From Streptomyces sp. SLBN-31 (lineage in GTDB: Bacteria; Actinomycetota; Actinomycetes; Streptomycetales; Streptomycetaceae), in the NCBI RefSeq assembly GCF_006715395.1, contig NZ_VFNC01000001.1, positions 1,178,001 to 1,242,000 on the forward strand: a stretch of 64,000 bases of DNA, read 5' to 3'. The notes beneath the pieces were generated by a model. The model saw only the letters and a list, made by a program, of their open reading frames with translations. It had not been told where the DNA came from and did not search any database. A program made the translations under genes and the position numbers. Below are positions 3,184 to 62,170 of the stretch, one piece after another; position 1 is the first letter of the stretch; every line of letters begins with the position of its first letter.

Positions 3184-3329
3184 CTGGGTAGAACCTACGG
3201 CAGCTCGGTGGCCGAAGACAGGCGGAAACCCGTCCCGCCATCCACCCCGCACACGTTCTTCACACGGCCTGCCGCTCACCGGAAGCCGGAGGGCGCGCAC
3301 GCGGTGCATGAGCTGCGGATTCCGTTTGC

Positions 3330-43517: not shown

Positions 43518-43964
43518 GTGGCCGACAACGCGCGTGCCAAGAGGCTGGCGGACCTCATCCGAGAGGTGGTGGCCCAGAAGCTGCAGCGCGGGATCAAGGA
43601 CCCGCGGCTCGGCTCCCACGTCACCATCACGGACACCCGTGTCACCGGGGACCTGCGGGAGGCGACCGTCTTCTACACCGTCTACGGCGACGACGAGGAG
43701 CGGGCCGCCGCGGCCGCCGGTCTGGAGAGCGCCAAGGGCGTGCTCCGCTCCGCGGTCGGCGCGGCGGCCGGCGTGAAGTTCACGCCGACGCTGGCCTTCG
43801 TGGCCGACGCCCTGCCGGACAACGCCCGCACCATCGAGGACCTCCTCGACAAGGCGCGCCAGTCCGACGCGAAGGTGCGCGAGGTCTCGGCGGGTGCCGC
43901 CTACGCCGGTGAGGCGGACCCGTACAAGAAGCCGGGTGAGGACGAGGACGACACCGCCGAATGA
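43518..43964 (+). CDS. rbfA: ribosome-binding factor A
   Basis: A 148-residue RbfA, needed for maturation of the 16S rRNA 5' end. A KH-type fold is visible with LADLIREVVAQKLQRGIKDPRLG and VTITDTRVTGDLREATVFYTV. The tail is acidic (DEDDTAE). GTG 43518 follows AAGGAGA. It is coupled to truB by an ATGA overlap. Confidence 0.95.
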   Translation: MADNARAKRLADLIREVVAQKLQRGIKDPRLGSHVTITDTRVTGDLREATVFYTVYGDDEERAAAAAGLESAKGVLRSAVGAAAGVKFTPTLAFVADALPDNARTIEDLLDKARQSDAKVREVSAGAAYAGEADPYKKPGEDEDDTAE

Positions 43965-44866
43965 CGCAGAAGACCATCACGCCCGACGGGCTTGTCATCG
44001 TCGACAAGCCGTCGGGCTTCACTTCGCACGACGTCGTCGCCAAGATGCGCGGCATCGCGAAGACGCGCCGCGTCGGACACGCGGGCACCCTCGACCCCAT
44101 GGCGACGGGCGTGCTCGTGCTGGGCGTGGAGAAGGCGACCAAGCTGCTGGGCCATCTGGCGCTCACCGAGAAGGAGTACCTGGGCACGATCCGCCTCGGG
44201 CAGACGACGGTCACCGACGACGCGGAGGGCGGGATCACGGGGTCGCAAGACGCCTCGAAGGTCGCCCGGGACGCGATCGACGCCGGGATCGCCAAGCTCA
44301 CCGGCGAGATCATGCAGGTGCCGTCCAAGGTCAGCGCCATCAAGATCGACGGCGTGCGGTCGTACAAGCGGGCCCGTGAGGGCGAGGAGTTCGAGATTCC
44401 CGCCCGCCCGGTCACCGTCTCCTCCTTCGCGGTGTACGACGTCCGGGACGCGGTCGCCGAGGACGGCACCCCCGTCGTCGACCTGGTCGTCTCGGTCGTC
44501 TGCTCCTCCGGCACCTACATCCGGGCGCTCGCCCGCGACCTGGGTGCCGACCTCGGCGTCGGCGGCCACCTGACCGCCCTGCGCCGCACCCGTGTCGGCC
44601 CGTACAAGCTGGACGCGGCGAGGACGCTGGAGCAGCTCCAGCAGGAGCTCACCGTCATGCCCATCGCCGAGGCGGCCGCGGCCGCCTTCCCCCGCTGGGA
44701 CGTCGACGCCAAGCGGGCCCGCCTGCTGACGAACGGCGTACGCCTCGACATGCCCGACGAGTACGCGTCGGCGGGAACGGTCGCCGTCTTCGACCCCGAG
44801 GGCCGCTTCCTCGCGCTCGTGGAGGCGCACAGGGGCAAGGCCAAGAGCCTGGCCGTCTTCGGCTGA
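43961..44866 (+). CDS. truB: tRNA pseudouridine synthase B
   Basis: A 301-residue TruB, which makes pseudouridine 55 in tRNA. The catalytic motif GHAGTLDPMATGVLV contains the active Asp, and the family starts with VDKPSGFTSHDVVAKM. A C-terminal PUA-like extension (about 240-300) is present, as in actinobacterial TruB. The ATG overlaps the rbfA stop (ATGA). The end of the gene is followed by an 8-bp tandem repeat. Confidence 0.96.
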   Translation: MTQKTITPDGLVIVDKPSGFTSHDVVAKMRGIAKTRRVGHAGTLDPMATGVLVLGVEKATKLLGHLALTEKEYLGTIRLGQTTVTDDAEGGITGSQDASKVARDAIDAGIAKLTGEIMQVPSKVSAIKIDGVRSYKRAREGEEFEIPARPVTVSSFAVYDVRDAVAEDGTPVVDLVVSVVCSSGTYIRALARDLGADLGVGGHLTALRRTRVGPYKLDAARTLEQLQQELTVMPIAEAAAAAFPRWDVDAKRARLLTNGVRLDMPDEYASAGTVAVFDPEGRFLALVEAHRGKAKSLAVFG

Positions 44867-44872
44867 CCGGGG

Positions 44873-44920
44873 AGACCGGGAGACCGGGAGACCGGGAGAC
44901 CGGGAGACCGGGAGTCTGCC
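44873..44920. repeat. six perfect tandem copies of an 8-bp unit
   Basis: AGACCGGG is repeated six times without error just after the truB stop, and a degenerate GACCGGGG copy precedes it. The unit is not codon-sized. It is a microsatellite likely to vary in copy number between strains. Confidence 0.9.
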
Positions 44921-45157
44921 CGTGGAGCGGCGATCACGGGGTTGTGCCGCCGCTCCACGGTCCCCCCTCGGTTCCCCCACCCCTAGGGTGTATCCACCGA
45001 CCCGCCACTGTTCACCCGTGCGGGCGGGCGCTCGGAGTGAAGCGGGGGAGCGGAAGGGGGCGCGTTCACCACGCCATCTGTCCCGCCGATCACCGCACGC
45101 CTACCGTCGAAGTCAGGGCACGGATGTACGGCGCAGGTGTACGGCGGGAGGTTCGCC

Positions 45158-48100
45158 ATGGCGGCAGGGGGCCCGCGGGGCGGAGGCGTAGGCCGGGCGA
45201 CGGCGAACGGGCCGACGGCTCCCGGAACACCGCGGGACGAGCCCGCCGAGGACGTTCTCGTCCGCATCCACGACCTCGCCGGGCGCCCCCGCGGCATCGG
45301 CTTCGTGGCCGACCACCACGGCACGGTGATCACAAGCCACGAGGCGGTCGACGGACTGCCCAGGCTGGTGCTGCGCGCCGACGGCGACCGCAGCTGCCTG
45401 GTCACCGCGGAGGCCGTGACGGCGCTGCCGGACCTGGACCTGGCCCTCGTACGCACCGAGGGTCTCGGCGTGGAGCCGCTGCCGGTCACCACCCGCGACC
45501 GCGTCGAGACCGGCACCTACGTGCGGCTGGCGGCCGGCTGCTGGCGCGAGGCGCGCGTCCTGGCCGCGACCTCCGTCACCTACGCGGCGACAGACCGCTT
45601 CCGCGCCCTCGGCGACGCCCTGGAACTCGCCATCGGCACGGCAGGGCAGGACGCGCTGCGGCTCGGCGGCGGCGCGGCCGGCGGCCCGGTGCTCGACGCC
45701 GGCACCGGCGCGGTCGTCGGCGTCCTCGGCACGGCCCTGCAGAACGGCCACCGCGCCACCGGCTTCGCCGTCCCCCTGCGCCCGGCACCGCCCGGGCCCC
45801 TGGCCGACCTCCTCGCCGCGAACACGGCCACGGTCCCCGCCTACGGAGCCGACCTCAACCTCGCCGGGGTCCTGGAACTGACGGCCACCTCGGTGGCGCA
45901 GGACGGGCCGCCGGGGACGCTCGGCCACGTCCGGGAGACGGCGGTGGTGTCGCCGGTCGAACGCGTCGAGACGGTACGGCAGTTCACCCGCTTCACCCGG
46001 GCGGACGCCCCGACCGCCGTACTGGGCCTGGTCGGCGCACCGGGCAGCGGCCGTACGACGGAACTCGCCGCCCTCGCCGCCCGGCGCAACCGCGGCACCG
46101 AACCGGCCCCCACGCTGTGGCTGCGCGGCGCCGACCTGCGGGACGACGACACATCGGTCGCGGACGCCGCACGCCGGGCGCTGACCCGCGCCGCACGCAT
46201 CGTCGCCGCATCCCGGTCCGCCGCCGTGCCGGACCTCGGCGACCTCGGCCCGGAACGCCTGGCCCGCATCGCCGACGCCGCCGGCCGCCCCCTGCTGCTC
46301 CTCCTCGACGGCCCCGAGGAAATGCCCCCGATCCTGGCCCACCGCCTGCCGCAGTGGACGGAGGGCACGGCAGCCTGGCTGCGGACCACGGGCGCACGCC
46401 TGGTGGTGGCATGCCGACAGGAGTACTGGGAACGGGCCGGCGCGGACTTCCCACGGGAGCTGCTGTACGACCCGAGTGGGTGGGCGGACCCGGCTGCGGG
46501 CGGCGCAGGGTCCCGGGGAGCGACGGGTCCGGCCGGGTCTTCGGGAGTGGCCGGTTCGGCTGTTGGGGGCGGCGCTTCGGGAGTGGCCGGTTCGGCTGTT
46601 GGGGGCGGCGGGCGTTCGGACGTGGGCGGTGCGGGGCGTGGTGGCGTCGAGTCCTGGGACGCGGGGGAGCCGCCCTGTGTGCGGCTCGGGGATCTTCGGG
46701 AGGGCGAGGCCCGTACGGCCCGCGGACTCTATCGCGTGCCCGAGGGCACCCTCGTGGGGGCGGACGCCCGGCATCCCCTCGCCCTCCGGCTGCTCTCCGA
46801 GGTTCTCGCCGCCCTGCCCGACGGCCCCGGCGCCCGCGTGGACCGCGACGACGTCTTCTCCGCCCACCTCGACCTCATGTGCCTGCGCATCGCCGTCCGG
46901 CTGGCCGCCGGAAACGGCCTGCGCGGCACGGCCGTACGCCGTCTCGCGGCCAAGGTCTGCGGACAGGTCCACGAGGCCGCCCGGCGCAGCCTGGGCCCCG
47001 GCCAGGGCGAGCTGGACCGGGCGGCGTTCGAGGAGACCTTCCCCTGGGGCCAGGCCCCGGCACGGCTCGGCGGCGGCACCGGCTGGGCCTCCGCCGTCCT
47101 CACCGAAGGCCTCCTCGTCCCCGCCGGCACCGGCTACCGCTTCGCCCACGAGGAGTTCGCCGACTGGATCCAGGGCATGCACCTCGACCTGGACGAGGCC
47201 CTGCGCGCGCTGGTCCACCGCCCGGCCACCCCCGCCCACCCCGTCCCCGTGCCGCACCACCGCATCGGCCCCGTCGTACAGGCCCTGCTCATGCTGGCCC
47301 GGGACCACGGCACCCGCCGACTCGCCCTCCGCCTCGAGGAGTTGGCCCGCGCCCTGCGCGACGATCCGGACTCCTGGTGGGCCGCCCGTCTGCTCACCGA
47401 GACCCTGCTGCGGGTACCGGACGCGACGCCGTATCTCGGCGTACTGCGACAACTGGCCGACAATCCCATGGCATCGACGAGCACCGGGCGGGGTGCCCTC
47501 GGCCCCGCCTTCTGGACCGACCTGCCCCTCCCCGCGCCCGAACGCCTCGACCTCCTGCGCCGGCTCCTGCCCGCCGACGGCCCCCCGCAGGACCCGGCGG
47601 CGGCCCCCGCACCCCGCTTCCTCGACGCCGCCTCCCGTCTCCTCGCCGCCGGCCCCACCGTCGTACAACCGCTCCTCACCCGCTGGTTCGACGACGACCG
47701 GCCGCTCCCGGCGACCCCGCACGCGACCGTCGCGAAGGCCGCGCAGGCGCTGCTGCACACCCATCGGCACCTCGCCCTGGACGACCTGACCGAGGTGCTC
47801 GTCGACTGCGCGCACCGGCGGGCCGACGAACTGCTCGCGGTGCTCGCCGAGGACGAGCCGTCGGCCGTCTGCCGGGCCGTCGGCCGTTGGACACACGACG
47901 AGCGGCCGGCCCGGCGGGTGGCGGCGGTCGCGTACGGGCTGCGGGCCGCGCCCCACGTCCGTACGGAGGCCGATCGCGAACTGCTGCGCCACGCGGCCCT
48001 CGCCCTGCTCGCCCGCCCCACCGACGCCACCCTGCACGGCGGCGCGCTCGCCCTTCTCGTACGCGACCCCCGCACGCGCGCCCGCCATCTCCCGCAGGCG

Positions 48101-48808
48101 CTGGGGCACTTCGCGGCCGGTGACCCGCACTTCCCGCCGAGCGCCCTGGTCGCCGCCCTGACCACGCATCCGGAACAGGTCCTGGACGCCTTCCGCCGGC
48201 GGCTGCGCGGGCGTGGTGACGCCGCAGACGCGCTGCGCACGCTCGCCGACGTCACCACGCCCCCGCTGGCCCGCCGCGTCGCCGTCCTGGTCCGCGAGGC
48301 CGTCGAGCGGCGTCCGGAGACCGCGGACGACGTCGCCGCGTACGTCGACCGGCGCCTGGACCAGGGGCCCGAGGCGCGCGCCGTACTGCTGCCGCTGGTC
48401 ACCGGCCTCCTCGACGGCGGCCCGGAGGAGGTACGGGCCGCGCTCGCCGCCGTACTCGTCGCGCCGGGCACCCCCGCCTCCCGCCCGCTGCGCCGCGAGC
48501 TCCTCGACTTCCTCCTCGCCCACGAACACGCCCCGGCCGTCCTGGACGCCCTGCTGCGCGCCACCGCCCGCTCCGACGGCGAAGAGGTCCGCGAGCTCGT
48601 CCACCGCACCGGCCTGCTGCTCGTCCGCACCCCGGACGGCGCGGCCCGCTTCGACCGCGGCCTGGTGGACCTGGGCCGCCAGGTGCCCGGCTTCGCGGCC
48701 CGGATGGCCGGGTGGCTCAACGACACCCCGCAGGCCTGGGCGGCGGTGGTGGGCCCCAGCACCCGCCGGATGATCGAGAACCTGGCGGGCGTCCGCGTCC
48801 CCGCCTGA
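45158..48808 (+). CDS. trypsin-fold pseudoprotease / STAND-like NTPase / helical-repeat protein
   Basis: A 1216-residue protein. Residues about 20-215 have a trypsin-like fold: His61 (VITSHEAV) and Asp94 (DLDLALV) fit the triad, but the GDSGGPVLD motif reads GAAGGPVLD, so the nucleophile is Ala174. A P-loop domain follows with GAPGSGRTT (Gly293-Thr301, Arg in the usual Lys place), a Walker B-like LLLLLDG (Asp384) and a VVACRQEYWERAG sensor. A Gly-rich linker (about 448-500) with a duplicated 12-residue unit precedes a winged-helix-like part. From about 700 to the end there are Ala/Arg/Leu-rich helical repeats (HEAT-like). ATG 45158 follows GGGAGG. It lies between truB and ribF. Trypsin-STAND fusions are known in actinobacteria and have been proposed as signalling or conflict proteins. 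I infer an NTP-driven sensor, not a protease. Confidence 0.75.
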   Translation: MAAGGPRGGGVGRATANGPTAPGTPRDEPAEDVLVRIHDLAGRPRGIGFVADHHGTVITSHEAVDGLPRLVLRADGDRSCLVTAEAVTALPDLDLALVRTEGLGVEPLPVTTRDRVETGTYVRLAAGCWREARVLAATSVTYAATDRFRALGDALELAIGTAGQDALRLGGGAAGGPVLDAGTGAVVGVLGTALQNGHRATGFAVPLRPAPPGPLADLLAANTATVPAYGADLNLAGVLELTATSVAQDGPPGTLGHVRETAVVSPVERVETVRQFTRFTRADAPTAVLGLVGAPGSGRTTELAALAARRNRGTEPAPTLWLRGADLRDDDTSVADAARRALTRAARIVAASRSAAVPDLGDLGPERLARIADAAGRPLLLLLDGPEEMPPILAHRLPQWTEGTAAWLRTTGARLVVACRQEYWERAGADFPRELLYDPSGWADPAAGGAGSRGATGPAGSSGVAGSAVGGGASGVAGSAVGGGGRSDVGGAGRGGVESWDAGEPPCVRLGDLREGEARTARGLYRVPEGTLVGADARHPLALRLLSEVLAALPDGPGARVDRDDVFSAHLDLMCLRIAVRLAAGNGLRGTAVRRLAAKVCGQVHEAARRSLGPGQGELDRAAFEETFPWGQAPARLGGGTGWASAVLTEGLLVPAGTGYRFAHEEFADWIQGMHLDLDEALRALVHRPATPAHPVPVPHHRIGPVVQALLMLARDHGTRRLALRLEELARALRDDPDSWWAARLLTETLLRVPDATPYLGVLRQLADNPMASTSTGRGALGPAFWTDLPLPAPERLDLLRRLLPADGPPQDPAAAPAPRFLDAASRLLAAGPTVVQPLLTRWFDDDRPLPATPHATVAKAAQALLHTHRHLALDDLTEVLVDCAHRRADELLAVLAEDEPSAVCRAVGRWTHDERPARRVAAVAYGLRAAPHVRTEADRELLRHAALALLARPTDATLHGGALALLVRDPRTRARHLPQALGHFAAGDPHFPPSALVAALTTHPEQVLDAFRRRLRGRGDAADALRTLADVTTPPLARRVAVLVREAVERRPETADDVAAYVDRRLDQGPEARAVLLPLVTGLLDGGPEEVRAALAAVLVAPGTPASRPLRRELLDFLLAHEHAPAVLDALLRATARSDGEEVRELVHRTGLLLVRTPDGAARFDRGLVDLGRQVPGFAARMAGWLNDTPQAWAAVVGPSTRRMIENLAGVRVPA
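46539..46610 (+). repeat. perfect 36-bp tandem duplication inside the STAND-like gene
   Basis: Positions 46539-46574 and 46575-46610 are identical. The unit is 12 codons and keeps the frame, giving (S/A)SGVAGSAVGGG twice in the Gly-rich linker. It looks like a recent slippage event. Confidence 0.9.
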
Positions 48809-48935: not shown

Positions 48936-49889
48936 GTGCAGCGCTGGCGTGGCTTGGAGGACATCCCCGAGGACTGGGGGCGCAGCGTCGTCACCATCGG
49001 TTCCTACGACGGGGTGCACCGCGGGCACCAGCTGATCATCCGGCATGCCGTGGACCGCGCCCGCGAGCTGGGCGTCCCCTCCGTCGTCGTCACCTTCGAC
49101 CCGCACCCCAGCGAGGTCGTCCGACCCGGCAGCCACCCGCCCCTGCTCGCAGCCCACCACCGCCGCGCGGAGCTGATGGCGGACCTGGGCGTGGACGCGG
49201 TCCTGATCCTGCCCTTCACCAAGGAGTTCTCGAAGCTGTCGCCGGCCGACTTCGTCGTCAAGGTCCTGGTCGACAAGCTGCACGCCAAGGCGGTCGTCGA
49301 GGGCCCCAACTTCCGCTTCGGCCACAAGGCCGCCGGAAACGTCGAGTTCCTCGTCGAGCAGGGCCGGGTGTACGACTTCGAGGTCGAGGTCGTCGACCTG
49401 TACGTCACCGGCGAGGCGGGCGGCGGCGAGCCGTTCTCCTCCACCCTCACCCGGCGGCTGATCGCCGAGGGCGACGTCCAGGGCGCCGCCGAGATCCTCG
49501 GCCGGCCGCACCGCGTGGAGGGCGTCGTCGTCCGCGGCGCGCAGCGGGGCCGGGAACTCGGCTTCCCGACCGCCAACGTCGAGACGCTGCCCCACACCGC
49601 CGTACCCGCCGACGGCGTCTACGCCGGCTGGCTGCACGTGAACGGCGAGGCGATGCCGGCCGCGATCTCCGTCGGCACGAACCCGCAGTTCGACGGCACG
49701 GAGCGCACGGTGGAGGCGTACGCGATCGACCGCGTCGGGCTCGACCTGTACGGGCTGCACGTGGCGGTGGACTTCCTGGCCTTCGTGCGCGGGCAGGCGA
49801 AGTTCGAGTCCCTCGAGGGTCTGCTGGAGCAGATGGCCGAGGACGTGAAGCGCTGCCGCGAGCTGGTGGCCGCCGCCGAGCAGCCGTAG
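48936..49889 (+). CDS. ribF: bifunctional riboflavin kinase / FAD synthetase
   Basis: A 317-residue RibF that phosphorylates riboflavin to FMN and adenylates FMN to FAD. The N-terminal nucleotidyltransferase half has VVTIGSYDGVHRGHQ (HxGH-like) and VVTFDPHPSEV, then GPNFRFGHKAAGN. The C-terminal kinase half has GRELGFPTANVE with VGTNPQFDG. GTG 48936 follows GAGGAG. It closes the truB-ribF cluster. A long hairpin follows its stop. Confidence 0.96.
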   Translation: MQRWRGLEDIPEDWGRSVVTIGSYDGVHRGHQLIIRHAVDRARELGVPSVVVTFDPHPSEVVRPGSHPPLLAAHHRRAELMADLGVDAVLILPFTKEFSKLSPADFVVKVLVDKLHAKAVVEGPNFRFGHKAAGNVEFLVEQGRVYDFEVEVVDLYVTGEAGGGEPFSSTLTRRLIAEGDVQGAAEILGRPHRVEGVVVRGAQRGRELGFPTANVETLPHTAVPADGVYAGWLHVNGEAMPAAISVGTNPQFDGTERTVEAYAIDRVGLDLYGLHVAVDFLAFVRGQAKFESLEGLLEQMAEDVKRCRELVAAAEQP

Positions 49890-49992: not shown

Positions 49993-52900
49993 CTACTGCT
50001 GCGTCCAGCCCGGCGGTACGGCACCGGGCTGACCCTGCTGCGGGTCCTGCGGCGGCGGCGCCGGCTGCTGCTGCTGCCAGCCCTGGCCCGGTGCGGGTTG
50101 CTGCGGGGGCTGACCCCAGCCCTGACCCGGCTGGGGCTGCCCGGGCTGTCCGTAGAGCTCCTGCTGGGGGTGCTGGGGGTGCTGCTGCGGGGCCGGGTAG
50201 CCCTGCTGCGGCTGCTGGTACTGCATGTTGGGGTTGCCGAAGCCCTGCTGCGTACGGGCGATGTCCTCGGCGATCAGCGCCGCGAGGTCGAAGTAGGCCT
50301 CGCGGGTCTTGGGCCGCATCATGTCGAGGTCGACCTCGGCGCCCGCCGCGAGGTGCTCGTCGAAGGGGATCACGACGACACCGCGGCAGCGTGTCTCGAA
50401 GTGCGCGACGATGTCCTCCACCTTGATCATCTTGCCGGTCTCGCGGACACCGGAGATGACGGTGACCGACCGCTGGACGAGGTCGGCGAAGCCGTTCGCC
50501 GACAGCCAGTCGAGCGTGGTCGAGGCGCTGCTCGCGCCGTCCACCGACGGGGTGGAGATGATGATCAGCTGGTCGGCCAGGTCGAGGACCCCGCGCATCG
50601 CGCTGTAGAGCAGACCGGTACCCGAGTCGGTGAGGATGATCGGGTACTGCTTGCCCAGCACGTCCAGCGCGGACCGGTAGTCCTGGTCGTTGAACGTCGT
50701 GGAGACCGCGGGGTCCACGTCGTTGGCGATGATCTCCAGACCCGAGGGCGCCTGCGAGGTGAAGCGGCGGATGTCCATGTAGCTGTTGAGCTGCGGGATC
50801 GCCTGCACCAGGTCACGGATGGTGGCTCCCGTCTCGCGCCGCACCCGGCGGCCGAGGGTGCCGGCGTCCGGGTTGGCGTCGATCGCCAGGATCTTGTCCT
50901 GCCGCTCGGTGGCGAGCGTCGCGCCCAACGACATGGTCGTCGTGGTCTTGCCGACACCGCCCTTGAGGCTGATGACCGCGATCCGGTAGCAGGACATCAC
51001 CGGCGTACGGATCAGCCCGAGCTTCCGCTCCCGCTCGGCCTGCTCCTTCTTGGCACCGAGCTTGAAGCGCGACGGGCCCTGATTGTTCTTGCGGGCCTTC
51101 GGCTGGTTGCGCAGCAGCCGGTCCGAGGAGAGCTCGACGGCGGCGTTGTAGCCGAGCGGCGTGCCGGGCGCGGCCTGCTGCTGCGGGGGCGCACCGGGAC
51201 CGGCCTGCGGACCCGGAGGAGCGGTCCAGCCGCCCTGGGCGGCCGGGGCGCCCTGGTTGCCGTAGGGGGTGGGGGGCTGCTGCTGGGCCTGCGGCTGGGG
51301 TTGGGGTTGGGCGGGGGGCTGCGGCGCGGGCGGCTGCGGGTGCTGGGCCTGGTCGGGCTGGGGGTATCCGTAGCCGGCGGGGGGCTGGGGCTGTGTGGGG
51401 GGTTGCGGCTGAGGCTGAGGCTGCGGCTGCTGGTGGGGCGGGTAGCCGTAGCCGGGCTGCGGAGGCTGGACGGGCTGGCCCGGCTGGCCGGGGGTTTGGG
51501 GGTAGCCGTATCCGGCGGCCGGGGGCGGCCCGGGGTGGGGCTGCGGCTGGGCCGGGTGGGGCTGGGGGGACTGGGGCGCCTGCGGTGCGTGGGGTGCCTG
51601 GGGTGTCTGGGGATAGCCGTAGCCGGCCTGCTGCGGGTGCGGGGGCTGCGGGGGCTGGGGCGCCTGCCGGGGGTCGACCGGTGCGGGCTGGCCGGGGTGC
51701 GCGGCCACCGGGCCGAAACCGCCCTGCGCGGGCGGCTGTTGGGCGGGCTGGCCGAACTGGCCGGGCTGGCCGGGGGCCTGGGGGTAGCCGTATCCGGCCG
51801 GGGGCTGGGGCCGGCCCGGCGGCTGGCCCTGCTGGGGCTGGGCGTGCTGGACGGGCGGCTGTCCCGGATGCGGCTGTCCCGGCTGGGGTGCCTGCTGCGG
51901 ATAGCCGTAGGGGCCCGCCTGCGGGTCCGGGTGGCCGGGCTGCTGCGCGGCGGCGGCCTGGGCCGGGTCCGCGGGGACGAAGCCCTGTGGCAGCGGCGGC
52001 AGTCCGGGGGCACCCTGCGGCGGTACGGGGGGCTGCCCGGCCGGGTGGGTGGCCTGCGGCGGCTCGGCCGGCACCTGGGCGGAGGGCGCGGGGGGCGCGG
52101 ACGCCGGCTCCGGCTCGGCGTCCGGCTGCGCGGGGGAGCCGGCGCCGGAAGTGTCCTGGGCGGACTCGTCGTCCTGGGCGGTGGTCGGGGAGTGCGGCTC
52201 GCTCTCGTCTACGGAGGTCTCCTCCGGCTCCTCGTCGTCGCCCCCGCCGAAGAGGCGGGCCGCCTCTTCGGCGGCGGCGACGTGGTTGAGCTCCGGCTCC
52301 TCGGGCTCCTCGGGCTGCTCGGGGTGCTCGGGGGTGGCCGTCGGGACGCCGGCCGCCGGGGTGGCCGTGGTGGGCGCGCTCGACGGGGTCTCCTCGTCGA
52401 CCGGGCGCAGCACGGGGAAGCCGGGCGCGGCGGAGGGCTGGGCGGGCGCCTGCTGCGGGGTCGCGGGCGGGGCGGCGGCCGCCTGCTGCTGGGGTGCGGC
52501 GGGCTGCTGGGCCGGGGCCTGCTGCTGGGGAGCGGGTGTCGGCGCGGGCGCGGGCGCGGGGGCGGGCGGCGTGGCTGCCGGTGCGACGGGCTGGGCGGGC
52601 GGCTGCGCGGGGGGCTGCGCCTGGGGTGCGCCGAAGCCGCCGGACGTGTCCTGGCCCGGCTGCGGTGCGGCGGCCGTCGGCTGCTGCGGGTAGCCGTACC
52701 CGCCGGGCGCCGCGGGTGCGGTGCCCGGAGCTGCCTGCTGCGGGTAGCCGTAGCCCTCCGGAGCCGCGCCCTGCGCCGGTGCGGGCGGCGCCGGGGCCGG
52801 AGCCTGGGGCGCGGCGGGCGTCTGCGGCGCGGTGCCCGGAGGCCCGGTGGGCGATCCGATGGGCGGACCGGTCGGCGGTGGTGGTGAGTTCTGGCCGGAG

Positions 52901-53052
52901 TCCTGCTGTCCATCGCCCGTGCCACCGGTGCTCTGTGCGTACCAGGCGGGAGGCGTGTAGACGATTTCGAACTCGCCGGTGAGATCCACCTCGTGATCGT
53001 CCCCGTCCGAGGAAGGGCTCCCGCCGTTGTACTCGGACCGATCCCTGTTCAC
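49993..53052 (-). CDS. ESX-associated Pro/Gln-rich MinD/ParA-like ATPase (EspI-like)
   Basis: A 1019-residue protein. GTG 53052 follows GGAGG with six bases between. The first 640 residues or so are rich in Pro, Gln and Ala, with at least eight copies of a YGYP(Q/P) unit and an acidic stretch ([12 protein letters not shown]). The C-terminal third is a MinD/ParA ATPase with the deviant Walker [11 protein letters not shown] (about 697-706), [12 protein letters not shown] and [14 protein letters not shown] second Gln/Pro tail (70 residues) closes the protein. The mycobacterial ESX-1 protein EspI (Rv3876) has the same Pro-rich plus MinD layout. By analogy it may regulate or energise secretion. 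It is the last gene of the minus-strand arm. Confidence 0.85.
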
Positions 53053-53427
53053 TGCTTGCCTCCTGGTCAGCCACTGCTGCTGAGCTGGTCGTCGTCGCGG
53101 CCGGGCGGACCGAGTGGCGAGTCCCACGCGACTGCGATCGTCACCGCACCACCAGAAGCCTAATCACTCGCTTGGCGGGACGGAAAAGCCCCCATGGGCC
53201 CGGACGCCCAAGCACAGCAGGACCGGACGGCCGAGCCCCGCGGGCCCCGGACGGCCGAGCCCCGCGGGCTCGGACGGCCCCGGACGGCGAAGTTCCGCGT
53301 GCAGGGGCGGACGAGCCTCGCGGGCGCGGACGGAGGGTCCTGACGAACCGCTCCCGGGGACCGTACGAAATGCCCCGTGGGCGCGGCTCGTTCGAGCACC
53401 GCCCCCGCGCCCACGGACGACGACACG
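53053..53427. repeat. non-coding 375-bp gap with 24-bp tandem repeats
   Basis: CCGGACGGCCGAGCCCCGCG (first 20 bases of a 23-base unit) occurs at 53223-53245 and again at 53247-53269, with worn copies to about 53330 (CGGACGG, CGGACGAGCCTCGCGGGC). Nothing codes here: all long frames are unnatural in composition. It separates the 280-residue gene from the EspI-like gene, which may have its own promoter in the 53053-53200 part. Confidence 0.7.
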
Positions 53428-54270: not shown

Positions 54271-55586
54271 CAGTAGGTACCTCCGAGCGGCAGAGTCGCG
54301 AGGGCCCCGGGCACCTGCTCCCGGTCGAGACGGACGAGACCGACCTTGGCGGTGCTCGCGGCCCGCTCCAACTCCCGTCCCACCTGGCCGAGTTCGTCGT
54401 CGCCGCGGGCGGTCACCCGAATGTGTCCGGCGAGCGAGACACCGCGGTTGCCGGCCTTGCTCAGGGTCATGCTGAACGTCGTGGCGAGCACCGGCAGCGA
54501 GGTGAGCCGCGTGACCAGCTCGGGCAGCGACACCCCGCCGTTGCCCAACTGCGGCCAGCGGGACACCCAGTAGGTGGTGTGCCAGCGGTCGTCGACCCGC
54601 CAGGTCTTCACCGCCTCGACCGTACGGCGCTGGCTCCGCCCGTCCTGGGCGGCGTGCTGCTGGCTGGCGCGCGGGTTGAGGCAGCTGGACGTCGCCAACG
54701 CCTGCACCAGCTCGGTCTCGTCGAGGATGGTCGCCTTGAAGCCGGCGCCGGCCAGCCGGCTCGACAGCTGGTCGGCCACCCGCAGCAGCGCCCTCTGCGC
54801 CCCGGGAACACCGTCCCCGCGCGCCTGCACCGCCTCCGGGCACAGCTCGGGATCGAGCTTGAGGGCGACCCAGGTCAGGCGCAGTGCGGGCGAACCGACT
54901 TGGGCCTGCAGGGGGCCGTACGACCGTGCGGCGAGCGACTGTTGGGGCAGGTGCGGGGCGGGCGCCGGCTGGGTGTGCTGCACGACCTGCGCGGAGGCGA
55001 GCCGGATGCCGTCGACCTCCAGGGCGTCCTGGACGAGTTTCAGCGGCAGTTGACGGTGGGCCGCCGCGGGGCGCAGCGGTTCGTCGGCGGGCTGCACGAA
55101 CAGGACGGCCGTCAGGAAGGTCCCGTCGCCGATCATGCCGATCTGGCGGTTGTCACGGGAGACGAAGGCGTACGTCCGCAGGGCGGGGTCGCACTCCACG
55201 ACCGGGGCCAGCATCGCCTCCGTGCCGGGCGGCACGGGCAGCTTGGCGTCGCGGCGGCGCTGCCGGAGGGCGCGCGTGGTCTCGTACCACTCGGGCAGGG
55301 GCCGTCGGGCCCGGCGCAGGACCGCCAGGAGCAGCAGCAGGACGGCCACCACGCCGGCCGGCACCAGCAGCCAGGACACGTCGGCGGCCCATGCGGCGAG
55401 CAGGACGGCCGCCGCGAGTTCCACCAGGATGAGCTGTTGCAGTCGTACCGGCCCCAGGCCGCCCGGCCGGGGCAGCGTGCGCGGCGACGCGGCGGCGGGC
55501 GGGGCAGCCGTCGTACGTCTGTCGCCCGGGCCCCCTTGTGGCTGCTGTGCGCGGCGTCCGCGCCGAGTGCTCGTAGCGCTGCTCAT
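54270..55586 (-). CDS. eccE: type VII secretion membrane protein EccE
   Basis: A 438-residue protein. After about 45 disordered basic/Pro residues there are two adjacent membrane helices (about 55-95: LQQLILVELAAAVLLAAW and WLLVPAGVVAVLLLLLAVL), then a large cytosolic or periplasmic domain of about 330 residues. The double-helix start and the length match EccE, a core component of the ESX membrane complex. The start is uncertain between ATG 55586 and ATG 55598, and the first is placed better relative to AAAGGGA. It heads the minus arm and is divergent from EccB. Confidence 0.82.
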   Translation of the reverse strand: MSSATSTRRGRRAQQPQGGPGDRRTTAAPPAAASPRTLPRPGGLGPVRLQQLILVELAAAVLLAAWAADVSWLLVPAGVVAVLLLLLAVLRRARRPLPEWYETTRALRQRRRDAKLPVPPGTEAMLAPVVECDPALRTYAFVSRDNRQIGMIGDGTFLTAVLFVQPADEPLRPAAAHRQLPLKLVQDALEVDGIRLASAQVVQHTQPAPAPHLPQQSLAARSYGPLQAQVGSPALRLTWVALKLDPELCPEAVQARGDGVPGAQRALLRVADQLSSRLAGAGFKATILDETELVQALATSSCLNPRASQQHAAQDGRSQRRTVEAVKTWRVDDRWHTTYWVSRWPQLGNGGVSLPELVTRLTSLPVLATTFSMTLSKAGNRGVSLAGHIRVTARGDDELGQVGRELERAASTAKVGLVRLDREQVPGALATLPLGGTY

Positions 55587-56066
55587 CCCCCGGGACATCC
55601 CTTTCGCGAATTCAGTGGCCGCTCGCTGGGCCCACGACAACCATGTGGGCGGCTCACGGTACCCGTTGCGCGACGGCGGGCGACACACGGGACACCGAAA
55701 CCCCAGGTGGCCACCCTGTCACGGACCCGCCCCGCGTGGTGGAGCGCTGTGGTGAAGCTCTGTGAAGATGCGGGGTCGGCCGAACACCTGGTGAACCGTC
55801 CTCGCGCGGCGCAGGGCATAGTAGGTGCCTGCGCGGCCGAAGGTGCCCCAGCCGCTTCGCGTCGGCGATCGGACGTCACAGACGCGATCGAGCGGTCCGG
55901 GCACTGCGTACGCGGCTCGGGCACTGTGGTCACTGCGTGCAGTGCGGGTGCTGTGGGCACTGCGAACAGTGCTTGCGGCCCGGACACTGTTGGCACTGCG
56001 GACAGTGGGTGCAGTGCGGGCACTTCGGACGGGATCGAGCAGTACGAAACGGGAGAAACGGGGACC
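55587..56066. promoter_or_regulatory. divergent eccE/eccB control region with CACTG-type palindromes
   Basis: A gene-free 480-bp region. Between 55900 and 56025 it contains many CACTG and CAGTG elements. Three form palindromes: CACTGCGTGCAGTG (55931-55944), GCACTGCGAACAGTGC (55957-55972) and CACTGCGGACAGTG (55994-56007). The stretch also translates as a Cys/His-rich peptide, but it has no ribosome site and runs into eccB in another frame. The repeats resemble clustered binding sites for a dimeric regulator, close to the eccB start. Confidence 0.6.
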
Positions 56067-57641
56067 ATGGCAAAGCGTCAGGACGAGCTCGCCGCCTACA
56101 ACTTCGCTCGCAAGCGCACCGTCGCGGCCTTCCTCGCGCCGTCGCCGGGCGGCTCGGAGGAAGGCGCCCCGCGTCCGGTCCGCACGGTGACGCCCAGCCT
56201 GGCGCTCGGGATCGTCCTGGTGGTGGGGTTCATCGCCTGGGGCGTGATCAAGCCGACGGCACCGCAGGGCTGGGACACTCCCGGGCAGTACATCATCGTC
56301 GACAGCGACTCCACGACGCGCTACGTCGTCCTCAACGACGAGACGTCGAGCGGCAAGAAGGTCCCGACGCTGCACCCCGTCCTCAACTACGCTTCCGCCA
56401 AACTCCTGTTGGACAAGGGCAAGGGCAGCGTCCTGGAGGTCTCCGGCAAGGAGATCGACAAGAGCGACATCGCGCACGGTGCCACCCTCGGCATCCCGTA
56501 CGCCCCCGACCGGCTGCCCTCCGCGAGCGACGCGGAGAAGACGAAGACGTGGGCGGTGTGCGAGCGCCCCGCGCAGGGCTCGGGCAGTACCGAGGACGGC
56601 AACATCGACCGCGCCGTGTTCGTCATGGACGCCGCGGACGCCAAGTCCCTGAACGGCACGGGCAAGGTGGGCCCCGGCCAGGCCCTGTACGTCAAGGACC
56701 CCAGGACCGACCGGGAGTACCTGGTCGACGGCAAGGGCAACCTCTTCTGGCTCGGCGGCCCCGCGGTCGCCGACGCCGCCACCATGCAGCAGTTGCGCTC
56801 CGCCGTCATCGGCAGCACGGCCAAGGCGCAGCCGGTGAGCCAGGAATGGCTGCGCACCCTCAACCCGCGCGGCGTCATCTCCTTCCCGAAGGTCCCCGGC
56901 GCCGGCGCCACGACCTCCGTCAAGGGACTGCCCAGCGGGACGAGCACGGTGGGCCAGGTCCTGGAGGCGCCGGACGCGCAGGGCATGCAGTACTACGTCG
57001 TCCTCAAGGACAAGGTCGCCGTCGTCACGCCCTTCGTGGCGCAGTTGTTGATGCAGTCGCCGCAGGCCCAGAACACCAGCCCCACCAAGGTCTCCTCCGG
57101 CATGATCATCCAGGCCAACGGCGGCCCCGCGGACCCCTTCTACGGCGACCAGGGCTGGCCCCAGTCCGTCCCGCGGCAGGCCAACCCCGCGACCACGGCG
57201 ACGGGCGAGACCCGCACCACCTCGTGCAGCGTCTACGACGGCACCATCGGCGCGGACAAGAAGCCGCGGCTGGCGGCATGGGCCGGGACGACGTACCCGA
57301 AGAAGGTCATCGCCGACTCGCTGAGCGCCTACGTCTCCTCGGGCTCCGGCCTGCTGTTCCAGGAGGTCACCGGCGCGGCGGGCGGAGGCGGCGCCTGGTA
57401 CCTGCTGACCGACACGGGTCTGCGCTACTCGCTGCCGTCGAACAACGACAGTACGGCGAAGGGGACTTCGGCCTCCTCCACGTCCACGTCCGGACAGCCG
57501 AGCGAGACGGACAAGGCGCGTACCCGTCTCGGCTACGAGGACGTCTCCAGGCCGGCGATCGTGCCGCAGACCTGGGCGAAGTTCATCCCGAAGGGACCCA
57601 CGCTGGACACGGGCGGCGCGAAGCAGGAACAGAGCCAGTGA
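56067..57641 (+). CDS. eccB: type VII secretion membrane protein EccB
   Basis: A 524-residue EccB. It starts with RQDELAAYNFARKRTVAAFLAP, the conserved cytosolic tail, followed by a single membrane helix (about 48-67, SLALGIVLVVGFIAWGVI), and then a large extracytoplasmic domain with repeated beta units (YIIVDSDSTTRYVVLND) that matches mycobacterial EccB. ATG 56067 has a GGGAGA/GGGGA region upstream. It opens the plus arm of the locus, before the two WXG100 genes. Confidence 0.92.
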   Translation: MAKRQDELAAYNFARKRTVAAFLAPSPGGSEEGAPRPVRTVTPSLALGIVLVVGFIAWGVIKPTAPQGWDTPGQYIIVDSDSTTRYVVLNDETSSGKKVPTLHPVLNYASAKLLLDKGKGSVLEVSGKEIDKSDIAHGATLGIPYAPDRLPSASDAEKTKTWAVCERPAQGSGSTEDGNIDRAVFVMDAADAKSLNGTGKVGPGQALYVKDPRTDREYLVDGKGNLFWLGGPAVADAATMQQLRSAVIGSTAKAQPVSQEWLRTLNPRGVISFPKVPGAGATTSVKGLPSGTSTVGQVLEAPDAQGMQYYVVLKDKVAVVTPFVAQLLMQSPQAQNTSPTKVSSGMIIQANGGPADPFYGDQGWPQSVPRQANPATTATGETRTTSCSVYDGTIGADKKPRLAAWAGTTYPKKVIADSLSAYVSSGSGLLFQEVTGAAGGGGAWYLLTDTGLRYSLPSNNDSTAKGTSASSTSTSGQPSETDKARTRLGYEDVSRPAIVPQTWAKFIPKGPTLDTGGAKQEQSQ

Positions 57642-57909
57642 CCTGCGGGCCGCGGTCGGCGAGGCCCGAGCACGTTCCTCTCGGCGGCCAACGGACGTAT
57701 CAGGAAGCGCACTTGAGGGTAAGACGGCACATGGGTCACGAGTGCGTCGCTCAAGTGTGTGAGCCGTGTAACTGATTGGTCCTGTCAGTGGATGAGTGAC
57801 AGGCTGACGATAGAGTGTTTGCAGCGCTCAACGGTGCGAAGCTTCTCCGGGCACCTGGCAGGTTTCCCGGAGCCGACAACATGAACGACGACATGGGGGA
57901 AGGTTCATC

Positions 57910-58221
57910 ATGGCCGGCCAGTTCCGGGTAACAGAGGACGAACTCACCAAGCTCTCCGGTGACATCAACACCGTCAACGGCCAGCTGCAGGGCGAGATCC
58001 GCCGTCTCAACGGCGTCATCGAGCAGATCGCCGGCGGCTGGAAAGGCCAGGCGGCCACGTCCTACCACCAGCTGCAGGAGCGCTGGAACGCGGACGCGAA
58101 GAAGATGAGCGACATTCTCAACGACATCAAGGAAGCCGTGGACTCCACGCGGAGCAACTACTCCGCGTCCGAGGACCAGCAGAACTCCGAGATCAGCAAG
58201 ATCATGTCGGACTTCGGCTGA
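57910..58221 (+). CDS. esxB: WXG100-family ESX substrate (EsxB-like)
   Basis: A 103-residue helical-hairpin protein. The central turn motif is GGWKGQA (W-x-G), and helices flank it (TKLSGDINTVNGQLQGEIRRLNGVIEQI and WNADAKKMSDILNDIKEAVDSTRSNY). It ends with a flexible tail (SDFG). No signal peptide is present, as expected for type VII export. ATG 57910 follows GGGGGAAGG. It is followed by a second WXG100 gene with a stable hairpin between. Which of the two is EsxA and which EsxB is my assignment by the gene order published for S. coelicolor. Confidence 0.88.
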   Translation: MAGQFRVTEDELTKLSGDINTVNGQLQGEIRRLNGVIEQIAGGWKGQAATSYHQLQERWNADAKKMSDILNDIKEAVDSTRSNYSASEDQQNSEISKIMSDFG

Positions 58222-58272
58222 TCCAGCGGCCTTCGGAGGCCTGGGCCTCCGATCGGAATCTCCCCGGATCAG
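58218..58272 (+). promoter_or_regulatory. intercistronic hairpins between the two WXG100 genes
   Basis: CTGATCC (58218-58224, overlapping the first stop codon) pairs with GGATCAG (58266-58272), and CGGAGG (58234-58239) pairs with CCTCCG (58246-58251) inside. The fold could stabilise or partially terminate the message and so set the ratio of the two proteins. Confidence 0.6.
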
Positions 58273-58314
58273 AACTCCACGTCTTCCACCACTCTTCCTG
58301 AAAGGGAACTGACG

Positions 58315-58599
58315 ATGTCGATCCTCGTCAATTACGCAACGATCACCAACGCGTCCACCGACGTCCGCACCACGGCCGGCCGCATCAAGCAGCAGCTCGA
58401 GGACCTCGAGGCCTCGGTCAAGCGCGTCGCCGCCACCTGGGAGGGCGAGGCGCAGGAGGGCTACCAGCGCAAGCAGCGCGAGTGGGACCAGACCGCCCAG
58501 GACCTGCACTCCACCCTGCTGAAGATCTCCACCGCCCTGCAGAACGCGGCCGACAACTACCAGGCCACCGAGAAGAGCAACGCCGCGACCTGGGGCTGA
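58315..58599 (+). CDS. esxA: WXG100-family ESX substrate (EsxA-like)
   Basis: A 94-residue WXG100 protein. The turn motif is TWEGEAQ (W-x-G), between helices NASTDVRTTAGRIKQQLEDLEASVKRV and WDQTAQDLHSTLLKISTALQNAADNYQATE. It is probably the heterodimer partner of the preceding WXG100 protein. ATG 58315 follows GAAAGGGA. A hairpin follows its stop, so the two genes form a compact unit. Confidence 0.88.
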   Translation: MSILVNYATITNASTDVRTTAGRIKQQLEDLEASVKRVAATWEGEAQEGYQRKQREWDQTAQDLHSTLLKISTALQNAADNYQATEKSNAATWG

Positions 58600-58646
58600 G
58601 CCCGTCGGCGACCCGAGGGACCTGAGGGACCTGAGATGAAGAGAAT

Positions 58647-58680
58647 CGGCCCAGCCGACGCCACGGCGTCCGCTGGGCCG
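58647..58680 (+). terminator. stem-loop after the WXG100 pair
   Basis: CGGCCCAGC (58647-58655) pairs with GCTGGGCCG (58672-58680), and GACGC/GCGTC continues the stem around a CACG loop with one C/C bulge. It ends the esxB-esxA unit. Confidence 0.8.
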
Positions 58681-58797
58681 AGCTCTGCTCCGGGTCCGTG
58701 CCCGACATGTGCGGGGCGATACACAGCAAATCCCGCACATCTTCACACTCGTCAGCAGTACGTCTCGGACGTCGAGGAAGCCCTGGGGGCCTGGACA

Positions 58798-60114
58798 ATG
58801 AGGGGCCTGAACGTGAAGGGCCGCAGAGCCCGTTCGCGTAGCCACACCGGCCGTGACGGCCGCGGCACCGGAACCCGCGCGGCGCAGCGGGTCCTCGGCG
58901 TGCTCGCGGCCGCGGGGGTCTGCCTGGCGTCGACGCCGCCGGCGCTGGCTTCCGACGGTTCGCCGGGAGGCCGCCCCGCCCCCGCCCCCGGCCACGCGGA
59001 CTTCGGACTGGCGGCGAGCGGGGAGTGCGTCTTCGGGGGCGGCGTCATCAAGTCCACGCCGTGGTCGCTGCAGCGGGTGCTGCTGGACCAGCTGTGGGGC
59101 CAGGCGAAGGGCAAGGGCGTGACGGTCGCCGTGATCGACACCGGCGTCGACAGCTCCAACCGCCAGCTGACCGACGCGATGGCCTCCGGCAGCAAGTCCT
59201 TCGTCGGCGGCTCCGGCACCCAGGACCTGGAGGGTCACGGCACACGCGTGGCGGGCATCATCGCGGCCCGCCCGATGCAGGGCACCGGGTTCGAGGGGAT
59301 CGCGCCCGAGGCCAAGATCCTGTCCCTCCGCTACACCGGCGGAGAGAACAAGCAGGGCGACTCGGGAACCATGGCCGACGCGATCCGCGCAGCGGTCGCC
59401 AAGGGCGTGGACATCATCAACATCTCGTCGGACACCGCGAACAAGAAGGACGACCCGACGCTGCGCAGCGCCGTGACGGCCGCCGTGAACGCGGGCGCCC
59501 TCATCATCGCGGCCGCCGGCAACGACGGAGCCGACGGCAAGTCCGCGGACACGTACCCGGCTTCGTACGACGGCGTCCTGGCCGTCGCGGCCTCCGACCG
59601 CAACGACGAGCGCGCCTACTTCTCCCAGTCCGGCGACTTCGTGGACGTGGCGGCCCCCGGCGTCGACATGGTCTCGACGGTCCCGAAGGGCGGCCAGTGC
59701 ACGGCCGACGGCACGAGCTTCGCGGCGCCGTACGTGGCGGGCGTGGCGGCCCTGCTGAAGGAGAAGCACCCGACCTGGAAGGCGGCCCAGATCGCCACCC
59801 GGATCGAGCAGACGGCCCAACGGCCGGGCCGGGGACCCAACCAGTTCACCGGTTGGGGCGTCGTCGACCCGGTGGCCGCCCTGTCGGACACCTCCACCCC
59901 GGCCACGTCCCCGACCCCCGACCCGCCCGTGAAGGCCGGCACCGGCGGAGTCGTCCCCATGGCGGTGACCATGGGCGAGAGCGAGGCCGAAAAGGAACGG
60001 CGAACGGCCATCTACGTACTGGGAACGGGGTTCGCCCTGGTACTGGTGGTGGCGGGGAGCGGGGTGGCTGTGCGGGACTGGCGGAGCCGACGGACCGGAC
60101 GGGCCGGCCGATGA
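58798..60114 (+). CDS. mycP: mycosin 1, subtilisin-like membrane-anchored serine protease of the ESX system
   Basis: A 438-residue S8 protease. A signal peptide (about 25-52, hydrophobic VLGVLAAAGVCLASTPPALA) precedes the catalytic domain. The triad is intact: Asp114 (VIDTGVDSS), His147 (GHGTRVAG) and Ser307 (GTSFAAPYVAG), with the oxyanion Asn in AAAGNDGAD. A C-terminal membrane helix (about 403-425, IYVLGTGFALVLVVAGSGVAV) is followed by a basic tail. Mycosins process ESX substrates and stabilise the secretion complex. The start is uncertain. GTG 58813 has a good GAGGGG site and is a strong alternative. Confidence 0.9.
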   Translation: MRGLNVKGRRARSRSHTGRDGRGTGTRAAQRVLGVLAAAGVCLASTPPALASDGSPGGRPAPAPGHADFGLAASGECVFGGGVIKSTPWSLQRVLLDQLWGQAKGKGVTVAVIDTGVDSSNRQLTDAMASGSKSFVGGSGTQDLEGHGTRVAGIIAARPMQGTGFEGIAPEAKILSLRYTGGENKQGDSGTMADAIRAAVAKGVDIINISSDTANKKDDPTLRSAVTAAVNAGALIIAAAGNDGADGKSADTYPASYDGVLAVAASDRNDERAYFSQSGDFVDVAAPGVDMVSTVPKGGQCTADGTSFAAPYVAGVAALLKEKHPTWKAAQIATRIEQTAQRPGRGPNQFTGWGVVDPVAALSDTSTPATSPTPDPPVKAGTGGVVPMAVTMGESEAEKERRTAIYVLGTGFALVLVVAGSGVAVRDWRSRRTGRAGR

Positions 60115-60169
60115 GGTCGGCACCGAACGGTGCTGAGAACTTGAATAACAGGGGAGAGGACAACGGGGT

Positions 60170-60508
60170 ATGAGTAACGGAATGCGAGTCGATCTGAGCG
60201 CACTGGATGAGGTCATCCGGAAGCTCAACGGCCTCCTCTCGGACATGGACAAGGCCAACACCAAGGCCAAGTACGAGACGGACATCCCGAGCAGTGCGTT
60301 CGGCAGTGAGAAGTTCCTTGAGTCCAACGAACTTCACTCGGCCCACCAGAAGCAGAAGACCAGGATCGAGAACATGATCAGGGACCTGCACAAGCTGATC
60401 GATGACTTCGGCACCAGCACCTCGAAGGTCAGGGACAAGTACAGCAACCAGGAGCACGCGAACGCACAGGGCGTCAGCGCGACTCCCAAGGGTGGGTCCG
60501 CCTACTAG
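60170..60508 (+). CDS. small helical WXG100-like protein
   Basis: A 112-residue protein. It is rich in charged helices (VDLSALDEVIRKLNGLLSDMDKANTKAKY, then HQKQKTRIENMIRDLHKLIDDFGTSTSKVRDKYS) but has no W-x-G turn: the turn region reads SSAFGSEKFLESNEL. It has the size and gene position of an ESX substrate partner, perhaps for the following 511-residue protein. ATG 60170 has GGAGAGGA at 60153-60160. The assignment to the secretion locus is by position and fold type only. Confidence 0.7.
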   Translation: MSNGMRVDLSALDEVIRKLNGLLSDMDKANTKAKYETDIPSSAFGSEKFLESNELHSAHQKQKTRIENMIRDLHKLIDDFGTSTSKVRDKYSNQEHANAQGVSATPKGGSAY

Positions 60509-60549
60509 GCGGTTCGGCGACCGGTCACTGACGGAGGGGATGGACGAAA

Positions 60550-62085: not shown

Positions 62086-62130
62086 GCAGGAAGCGGGCCT
62101 GACGTAAGGTCGTCGTCGGCCCATTTGTCG

Positions 62131-62147
62131 GGCTGGTGACTCCAGCC
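62131..62147 (+). terminator. short stem-loop before mycosin 2
   Basis: GGCTGG (62131-62136) pairs with CCAGCC (62142-62147) across TGACT. The stem is only six pairs, so termination would be weak. Confidence 0.4.
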
Positions 62148-62170
62148 GCAGCTGAGTGAGGAGCAGGGAG

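Follow-up and report, generated by a model that had tools for sequence, protein, structure and literature searches.

We examined a 64,000-nucleotide stretch of the Streptomyces sp. SLBN-31 genome (contig NZ_VFNC01000001.1, positions 1,178,001 to 1,242,000; hereafter the window), in which a gene that we call X lies between truB and ribF. X encodes a protein that combines an N-terminal trypsin fold with a NACHT-like STAND NTPase, a winged helix and a HEAT-like solenoid, and its family lacks both the catalytic Ser of the trypsin domain and the Lys of the P-loop. On the basis of the computed domain order, fold, kinship, loss of these two residues, fixed position and sequence constraint, we consider it very probable that X is a domesticated, doubly degenerate NLR-like protein. 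A first-pass annotation had given the coordinates and start of X, Ala174 in GAAGGPVLD, Asp94, and the P-loop GAPGSGRTT with Arg299, all of which we found in the sequence. The features of the gene are as follows.

45158..48808, + strand: X, a pseudo-trypsin / NACHT-like STAND / winged-helix / HEAT-like protein of 1216 amino acids (translation, homologues, AlphaFold2, fold matches)
45146..45151, + strand: Shine-Dalgarno-like GGGAGG upstream of the ATG at 45158 (sequence inspection)
45257..45823, + strand: pseudo-trypsin domain, residues 34-222, with Glu62 the probable occupant of the His position, a variable Asp94 and Ala174 in place of Ser
45677..45679, + strand: Ala174 codon at the catalytic Ser position (Ala in 121/121)
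45950..46447, + strand: NACHT-like nucleotide-binding domain, residues 265-430
46034..46060, + strand: P-loop GAPGSGRTT, with Arg299 where Lys is expected (Arg in 121/121)
46292..46321, + strand: Walker B-like LLLLLDGPEE, residues 379-388 (D384 and E387 in 110/110 non-gap rows)
46454..46672, + strand: variable Gly/Ala/Ser linker, residues 433-505 (low model confidence, tandem repeats)
46676..47227, + strand: winged-helix / helical part, residues 507-690, holding Pro540 and His664
47228..48805, + strand: HEAT-like alpha-solenoid, residues 691-1216 (helical model, Foldseek matches)

Predicted fold and active-site residues

The frame ends in a stop codon at 48808, has a third-position GC content of 0.91 and is conserved as a protein, with 2522 homologues at E ≤ 1e-3; the nearest among the matches listed, from a Streptomyces, is 98% identical. 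Residue counts below come from X plus the best 120 of these 2522 homologues (the 121-sequence set) or from 110 loci plus the query (the loci set, 111 rows, in which the query and L010 are one gene counted twice).

An AlphaFold2 model of residues 34-1216 (model residue 1 is X residue 34) had a predicted local distance difference test score (pLDDT) of 86.9 and a predicted template modeling score of 0.75. Its first residue opens a trypsin-fold strand, with residues 1-33 outside the model, and the N-terminal domain is predicted to adopt the trypsin fold. The solved structures closest to the NTPase part are NACHT modules, and the model predicts a NACHT-winged-helix fold with its Pro and His motifs. 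Foldseek matches of the whole model included transportin, the PP2A A subunit and beta-catenin; a VIA-align fold comparison hardly covered the solenoid (model residues > 758). Model and fold matches thus support the architecture proposed by the first-pass annotation, a trypsin fold joined to a STAND-type NTPase and C-terminal helical repeats. Its Ala/Arg/Leu repeat tail corresponds to the predicted HEAT-like helical solenoid; the low-complexity sequence proved to be a separate linker (about residues 433-505), predicted to be disordered from a pLDDT below 50 at model residues 414-466. Within the linker lies an exact 36-bp tandem duplicate (46539-46610).

In hmmscan searches against Pfam, neither full-length X nor residues 34-1216 matched any family. 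When the Pfam trypsin model was used to search the genome, the X locus scored 45.1 bits (E = 1.1e-10), and the model matched 39 of 42 X family members; we suspect that HMMER filters account for the hmmscan blank. The highest 19-residue mean hydropathy in X was 1.46, with no long hydrophobic segment.

For comparison we used an actinobacterial trypsin-NACHT-HEAT family with retained active sites (the active family), consisting of one protein encoded in the SLBN-31 genome (L120:3634-6951) and 120 others (P0122-P0241). X shares with it the domain order, a profile match across the trypsin, NACHT and winged-helix parts, and the types of fold match. Unlike X, the active family retains its catalytic residues (Ser in 120 and Asp in all 121 members) and the P-loop Lys (121 of 121), and its HEAT part diverges faster. 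The SLBN-31 member, on the + strand, has Ser, Asp and P-loop Lys intact; among the matches listed, one is 84% identical to it and the rest are below 40%. In six relatives of the active family (P0210, P0226, P0231, P0236, P0240 and P0241), some of which have a NACHT domain, the trypsin domain is joined to domains whose Pfam numbers we take to be RelA/SpoT and HD, presumably an architecture that combines a protease with a (p)ppGpp enzyme.

Active S1 proteases carry their catalytic Ser in GxSGxP. In the X family this position is Ala174 in every member of the 121-sequence set; in the loci set it is Ala in 100 rows, Thr in five, Ser in one, Gly in two, which we read as misaligned, and a gap in three. 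The first-pass annotation had asked whether Ser is lost in the whole family, and had noted that active homologues with an intact Ser would make X just a decayed copy. Because the Ser is missing family-wide, that objection fails, and the idea of a single decayed copy was rejected on this ground together with purifying selection (below). The sole copy seen with Ser174 is L063, from Streptomyces griseoruber, which also has His61, Asp94 and the P-loop Arg and sits within the tree, surrounded by Ala forms.

The two other triad residues named in the first-pass annotation fared less well. Asp94 is present in X and is not conserved across the family: the position is Asp in 101, Asn in 19 and Gly in one of 121 sequences, and Asp in 59 of 104 loci-set rows. 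His61 is probably not the triad His. Both His61 and Glu62 are kept in 121 of 121 sequences. In HMMER alignments to HhoA and Deg1, TSHEAVDG of X falls on TNAHVVDG or TNYHVIRG, which places Glu62 on the catalytic His, and hhalign of X against the active family gave the same register. In both structural models a strand ends in Thr, one coil residue follows and a helix begins; its second position is held by Glu62 in X and by the catalytic His in P0123 of the active family. Glu62, not His61, is therefore more likely to occupy the catalytic His position; this register is likely, not certain, because MAFFT disagrees with the profile alignments, hhalign and the models. On that register every position of the triad would be degenerate, and even L063 would lack the catalytic His. 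The correction left our overall assessment of X unchanged. The HhoA counterpart of the invariant His61-Glu62 pair of X is Ala-His.

The P-loop departs from GxxxxGK(S/T) at the Lys, which is Arg299 in all 121 sequences and wherever the loci set has no gap (110 rows); the remainder of the loop is intact. The Walker B acidic residues D384 and E387 are kept in 110 of 110 rows and the sensor Arg, R420, in 103 of 110. P540 and H664 are each invariant in the loci set (111 of 111), and the block at residues 641-680 has the lowest mean entropy. With the rest of the pocket motifs intact and the charge preserved by Arg, nucleotide binding by the NACHT-winged-helix module would be retained.

X is also poor in Lys, with two in 1216 residues; the median is three in the 121-sequence set and 17 in 120 active-family proteins. 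Among 419 other gene-like open reading frames in 864 kb of the SLBN-31 genome, called with a crude filter, the median Lys content was 1.85%. Frames as Lys-poor as X numbered one of 123 at ≥ 500 amino acids, none of 28 at ≥ 800 amino acids and nine of 83 in a composition-matched set. The Lys poverty of X is thus strong but not unique; Lys-poor proteins are reportedly frequent in pupylating Actinobacteria (PMC10665810). Gly, Ala, Arg and Pro make up 46.5% of X, and the X family is depleted in Ile, Asn and Ser compared with the active family.

Position, inheritance and selection

The neighbors of X are both on its strand:

43961..44866, + strand: truB, upstream neighbor (Pfam TruB_N, TruB_C)
48936..49889, + strand: ribF, downstream neighbor (Pfam FAD_syn, Flavokinase)

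X is preceded by truB and followed by ribF in 75 of 80 named loci, the other five ending at contig edges. The odd place among translation genes remarked on in the first-pass annotation is real. As truB is SCO5709 (PMC6344877) and ribF is SCO5711 (PMC9282665) in S. coelicolor, the orthologue of X there is likely SCO5710, by its position between the two. We found no paper naming SCO5710 in its main text, in a search that lay outside supplements and most subscription journals. The combination of truB, ribF, Streptomyces and serine protease likewise returned nothing, and the terms NLR, Streptomyces, NACHT and pseudoenzyme returned mostly papers on human NLRs.

Within the order, X is found in 117 of 147 genomes, every one a Streptomyces. 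Among those listed of the 30 genomes without X, at least 15 belong to the same genus and at least five to other genera, as do at least five of the remaining ten. At class level, X occurs in 36 of 394 genomes, all Streptomyces, one of the 137 genera covered.

This neighborhood might suggest that X is an accessory of the type VII secretion cluster, whose genes follow ribF in the window, or of ribosome or flavin maturation, with truB and ribF as conserved neighbors. We strongly doubt this. truB and ribF are present in 15 of 15 Streptomyces genomes without X, separated by 120-460 bases in 14 and by 1734 in one; because these genomes keep the two genes adjacent, the truB-ribF position alone is no proof of a translation role. 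Moreover, a hairpin separates truB from X, and EccB of the type VII cluster lies in the fetched stretch of 12 of these 15 genomes (one of the remaining three is a 7.5-kb contig). X as an obligate type VII component was rejected on the EccB count.

A FastTree phylogeny of RbfA, TruB and RibF, built from 100 X-bearing rows, 15 rows lacking X and five outgroups, requires five presence/absence changes, consistent with one gain after the basal splits followed by four losses; well-supported branches force three changes. As most X-bearing rows were chosen for having X, they are a non-random sample, and X may instead have been present at the base and lost more often. The inheritance of X is mainly vertical within Streptomyces. 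No close paralogue was found in the SLBN-31 genome at E ≤ 0.01, the sole other match scoring 13.6 bits (E = 0.042). This genome also holds two more trypsin frames, whose sequences suggest ordinary S1 proteases that are secreted and extended at the C terminus.

X shows neither the variable position nor the mobile carriage of a mobile anti-phage gene. None of 50,697 phage records matched X, and 72,556 plasmid records yielded one partial match, itself within a truB-ribF gap: two short solenoid pieces, 56-58% identical, from Streptomyces sp. BHT-5-2, which we read as decay of X. The record (L193, NZ_CP081497.1) is 2.8 Mb long, is labelled plasmid p1 and carries rbfA, truB, the X pieces and ribF.

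X is under purifying selection. Over 2621 pairs among 76 sequences, the median ratio of nonsynonymous to synonymous substitution rates (dN/dS) was 0.37 for X, with 0.29 for the trypsin part, 0.38 for NACHT, 0.31 for the winged helix, 0.38 for HEAT and 0.80 for the linker. Hundreds of columns are invariant across 34 sequences, and more than 100 across 42. X could be taken for a decaying pseudogene or a functionless product of compositional drift, given the missing catalytic residues, the high share of Gly, Ala, Arg and Pro, several losses in the tree and an internal stop in at least four of the matches listed (G138, G075, G128 and G086). The dN/dS value, the many invariant columns, the confident fold and the retention of X in 117 of 147 genomes largely refute this explanation, to which we give next to no weight.

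The C-terminal solenoid of X is not diversifying. At NACHT identities of 0.45-0.75, the ratio of HEAT to NACHT identity was 0.99-1.06 in X and 0.58-0.75 in the active family, a comparison that hinges on repeat-region alignments, which are difficult in the active family. Since a sensor of changing invaders should resemble the active family in this respect, X is unlike such a sensor.

These results bear on whether X is still an immune sensor, that is, a trypsin-NACHT-HEAT defense protein whose pseudo-trypsin recruits another effector. In keeping with that role are its homology to the trypsin-NACHT-HEAT family, a Foldseek match to Avs4 bound to a phage portal protein (8dgf, rank 22, E = 1.3e-4), the inactive trypsin and STAND proteins of predicted conflict systems (PMC7159879) and a weak PADLOC match of part of the solenoid to OloA (E = 0.027 for X, 0.0085 for L109). 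We nevertheless consider it unlikely, given the fixed position, the absence of phage matches, the one partial plasmid match and the solenoid that does not diversify. The same observations run counter to the possibility, raised in the first-pass annotation, that X moves with defense islands. Its suggestion that the inactive trypsin part binds peptides or brings in a further protease may still hold.

Relatives and proposed function

X could also act as a decoy or a dominant-negative regulator by assembling with the active trypsin-NACHT proteins present in its own cell. One such protein is encoded in the SLBN-31 genome (L120:3634-6951), and inactive domains have been proposed as dominant-negative regulators (PMC7159879). 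The active-family profile matched 54 of 147 genomes at E ≤ 1e-20 and reached the trypsin part in two (G000 and G128), as against 117 with X; this co-occurrence evidence is weak because four candidates per genome were scored. We regard a decoy role as very doubtful. On these counts, with four candidates scored per genome, X as an obligate partner of active trypsin-NACHT proteins was not supported.

The bacterial NLR-like proteins described are mostly defense genes. Like NLRP3, NLRP9, NOD2 and bNACHT (the last compared by description only), X has NACHT-like, winged-helix and helical modules followed by a C-terminal solenoid, and keeps the winged-helix His and Pro motif. Unlike them, it has Arg in place of the P-loop Lys, a HEAT-like instead of a leucine-rich-repeat solenoid, an N-terminal pseudo-trypsin and a fixed position. 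As a noncatalytic precedent, some NLRs may not hydrolyze ATP to a biologically relevant extent (PMC7583971).

Trypsin and STAND modules also meet in other systems. The Caulobacter CARD-NLR system LypABC contains modules of both kinds, a trypsin-like peptidase and a STAND ATPase. LypA joins, as X does, trypsin and ATPase parts in one protein, and its ATPase domain lacks Walker A/B residues; unlike X, it needs its catalytic Ser (S262A fails to restore lysis) and belongs to a three-gene system (PMC13236601). Predicted conflict systems include inactive trypsin domains and inactive STAND (iSTAND) proteins, and in the iSTAND ternary systems the inactive STAND protein sometimes has an N-terminal trypsin-like domain, as in X (PMC7159879). 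Those systems have MoxR and vWA genes alongside and are nearly absent from actinobacteria (PMC7159879), whereas X adjoins truB and ribF, with no adjacent MoxR and vWA genes. A noncatalytic role for a pseudo-protease is known from MamO (structure 5hma), which activates proteolysis by MamE (PMC4794232). MamO differs from X in its role in magnetosome formation. The pseudo-trypsin of X has a conserved His-His pair (H53 in 116 and H54 in 100 of 121 sequences); MamO has a di-His metal motif, which may or may not correspond to it. To our knowledge, MamO has neither a NACHT nor a HEAT part.

Taken together, the results suggest that X is a former immune-type sensor turned into a stable, probably non-enzymatic component of the cell. 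As one copy in one place, with a slowly changing solenoid and without the catalytic Ser or the P-loop Lys, X represents another NLR-like state. Going further, we lean slightly toward the fuller reading that X is a domesticated trypsin-NACHT-HEAT relative working as a probably non-catalytic scaffold or switch for a constant partner. In such a mechanism, X would be cytosolic and non-proteolytic. A peptide or protein partner may dock in the groove of the pseudo-trypsin, where His61-Glu62 is invariant and the GGGAAGGP loop conserved; the NACHT-winged-helix module could keep a state that depends on nucleotide, with hydrolysis slight or absent; and the HEAT solenoid would read a constant self partner, not variable invaders. 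More speculatively, X might be a bacterial pseudo-NLR that has left the immune arms race to become a genus-wide, vertically inherited, non-enzymatic hub for an unchanging self signal, possibly during mycelial development or under stress, its near lack of Lys protecting it from Lys-directed tagging; we put this forward only tentatively. Should X prove to be an NLR that has been domesticated and fallen silent as an enzyme, the route by which an immune-type switch turns into a permanent cell component would become open to experiment.

Several observations weigh against the reading of X as a domesticated scaffold or switch, or blur its outline. When both families were aligned with MAFFT, all four modes set His61 on the catalytic His, and under that register L063 would combine His, Asp and Ser. 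The Pfam NACHT model (PF05729) did not match X and gave weak matches in five of 42 members (best E = 0.003), and of the other models nSTAND_NTPase5 matched 11 of 42 and AAA_22 16 of 42, so that assignment of X to any one STAND clade is tentative. Composition confounds both losses: Ser makes up 2.9% of the X family and 5.3% of the active family, and as X is nearly Lys-free, the P-loop Arg may reflect protein-wide avoidance of Lys instead of selected loss of ATPase activity. The dN/dS of X is about double that of truB (0.17) and ribF (0.16), and since it is also absent from some lineages, X is dispensable. Finally, the solenoid contrast shrinks in closer pairs (NACHT identity 0.75-0.90), where the HEAT/NACHT ratio is 0.97 in X and 0.87 in the active family.

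Flanking noncoding sequence and other genes of the window

The interval between truB and X contains one structured feature:

44922..44959, + strand: hairpin 3′ of truB, a possible transcript end ahead of X (-41 kcal/mol; z of -3.05 for the 81-nt stretch 44905-44985)

A larger element upstream of X has 21 predicted pairs, three of which show changes on both sides, all within this hairpin. A terminator scan that needed a T run found none at the hairpin or near X, and no consensus promoter was found near X. The strongly conserved noncoding stretch 44922-45110, which consists of the hairpin and then about 110 conserved bases, is single-copy in the SLBN-31 genome. By BLAST it was present in 100 of 110 X-bearing loci, in eight of 15 Streptomyces gaps without X and in none of five outgroup gaps; Rfam gave no match to the stretch ahead of X up to E = 1. 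Tandem GACCGGGA repeats stand directly 3′ of truB (44865-44914).

On the other side of X, the type VII secretion genes 3′ of ribF (54423-63520) encode EccB, two WXG100 proteins and two subtilisin-type proteases. Within 49993-53127, the minus strand carries a MinD/ParA-like gene; the same strand has an Rfam match to the small RNA Scr5676 (140.4 bits) at 3056-3185.

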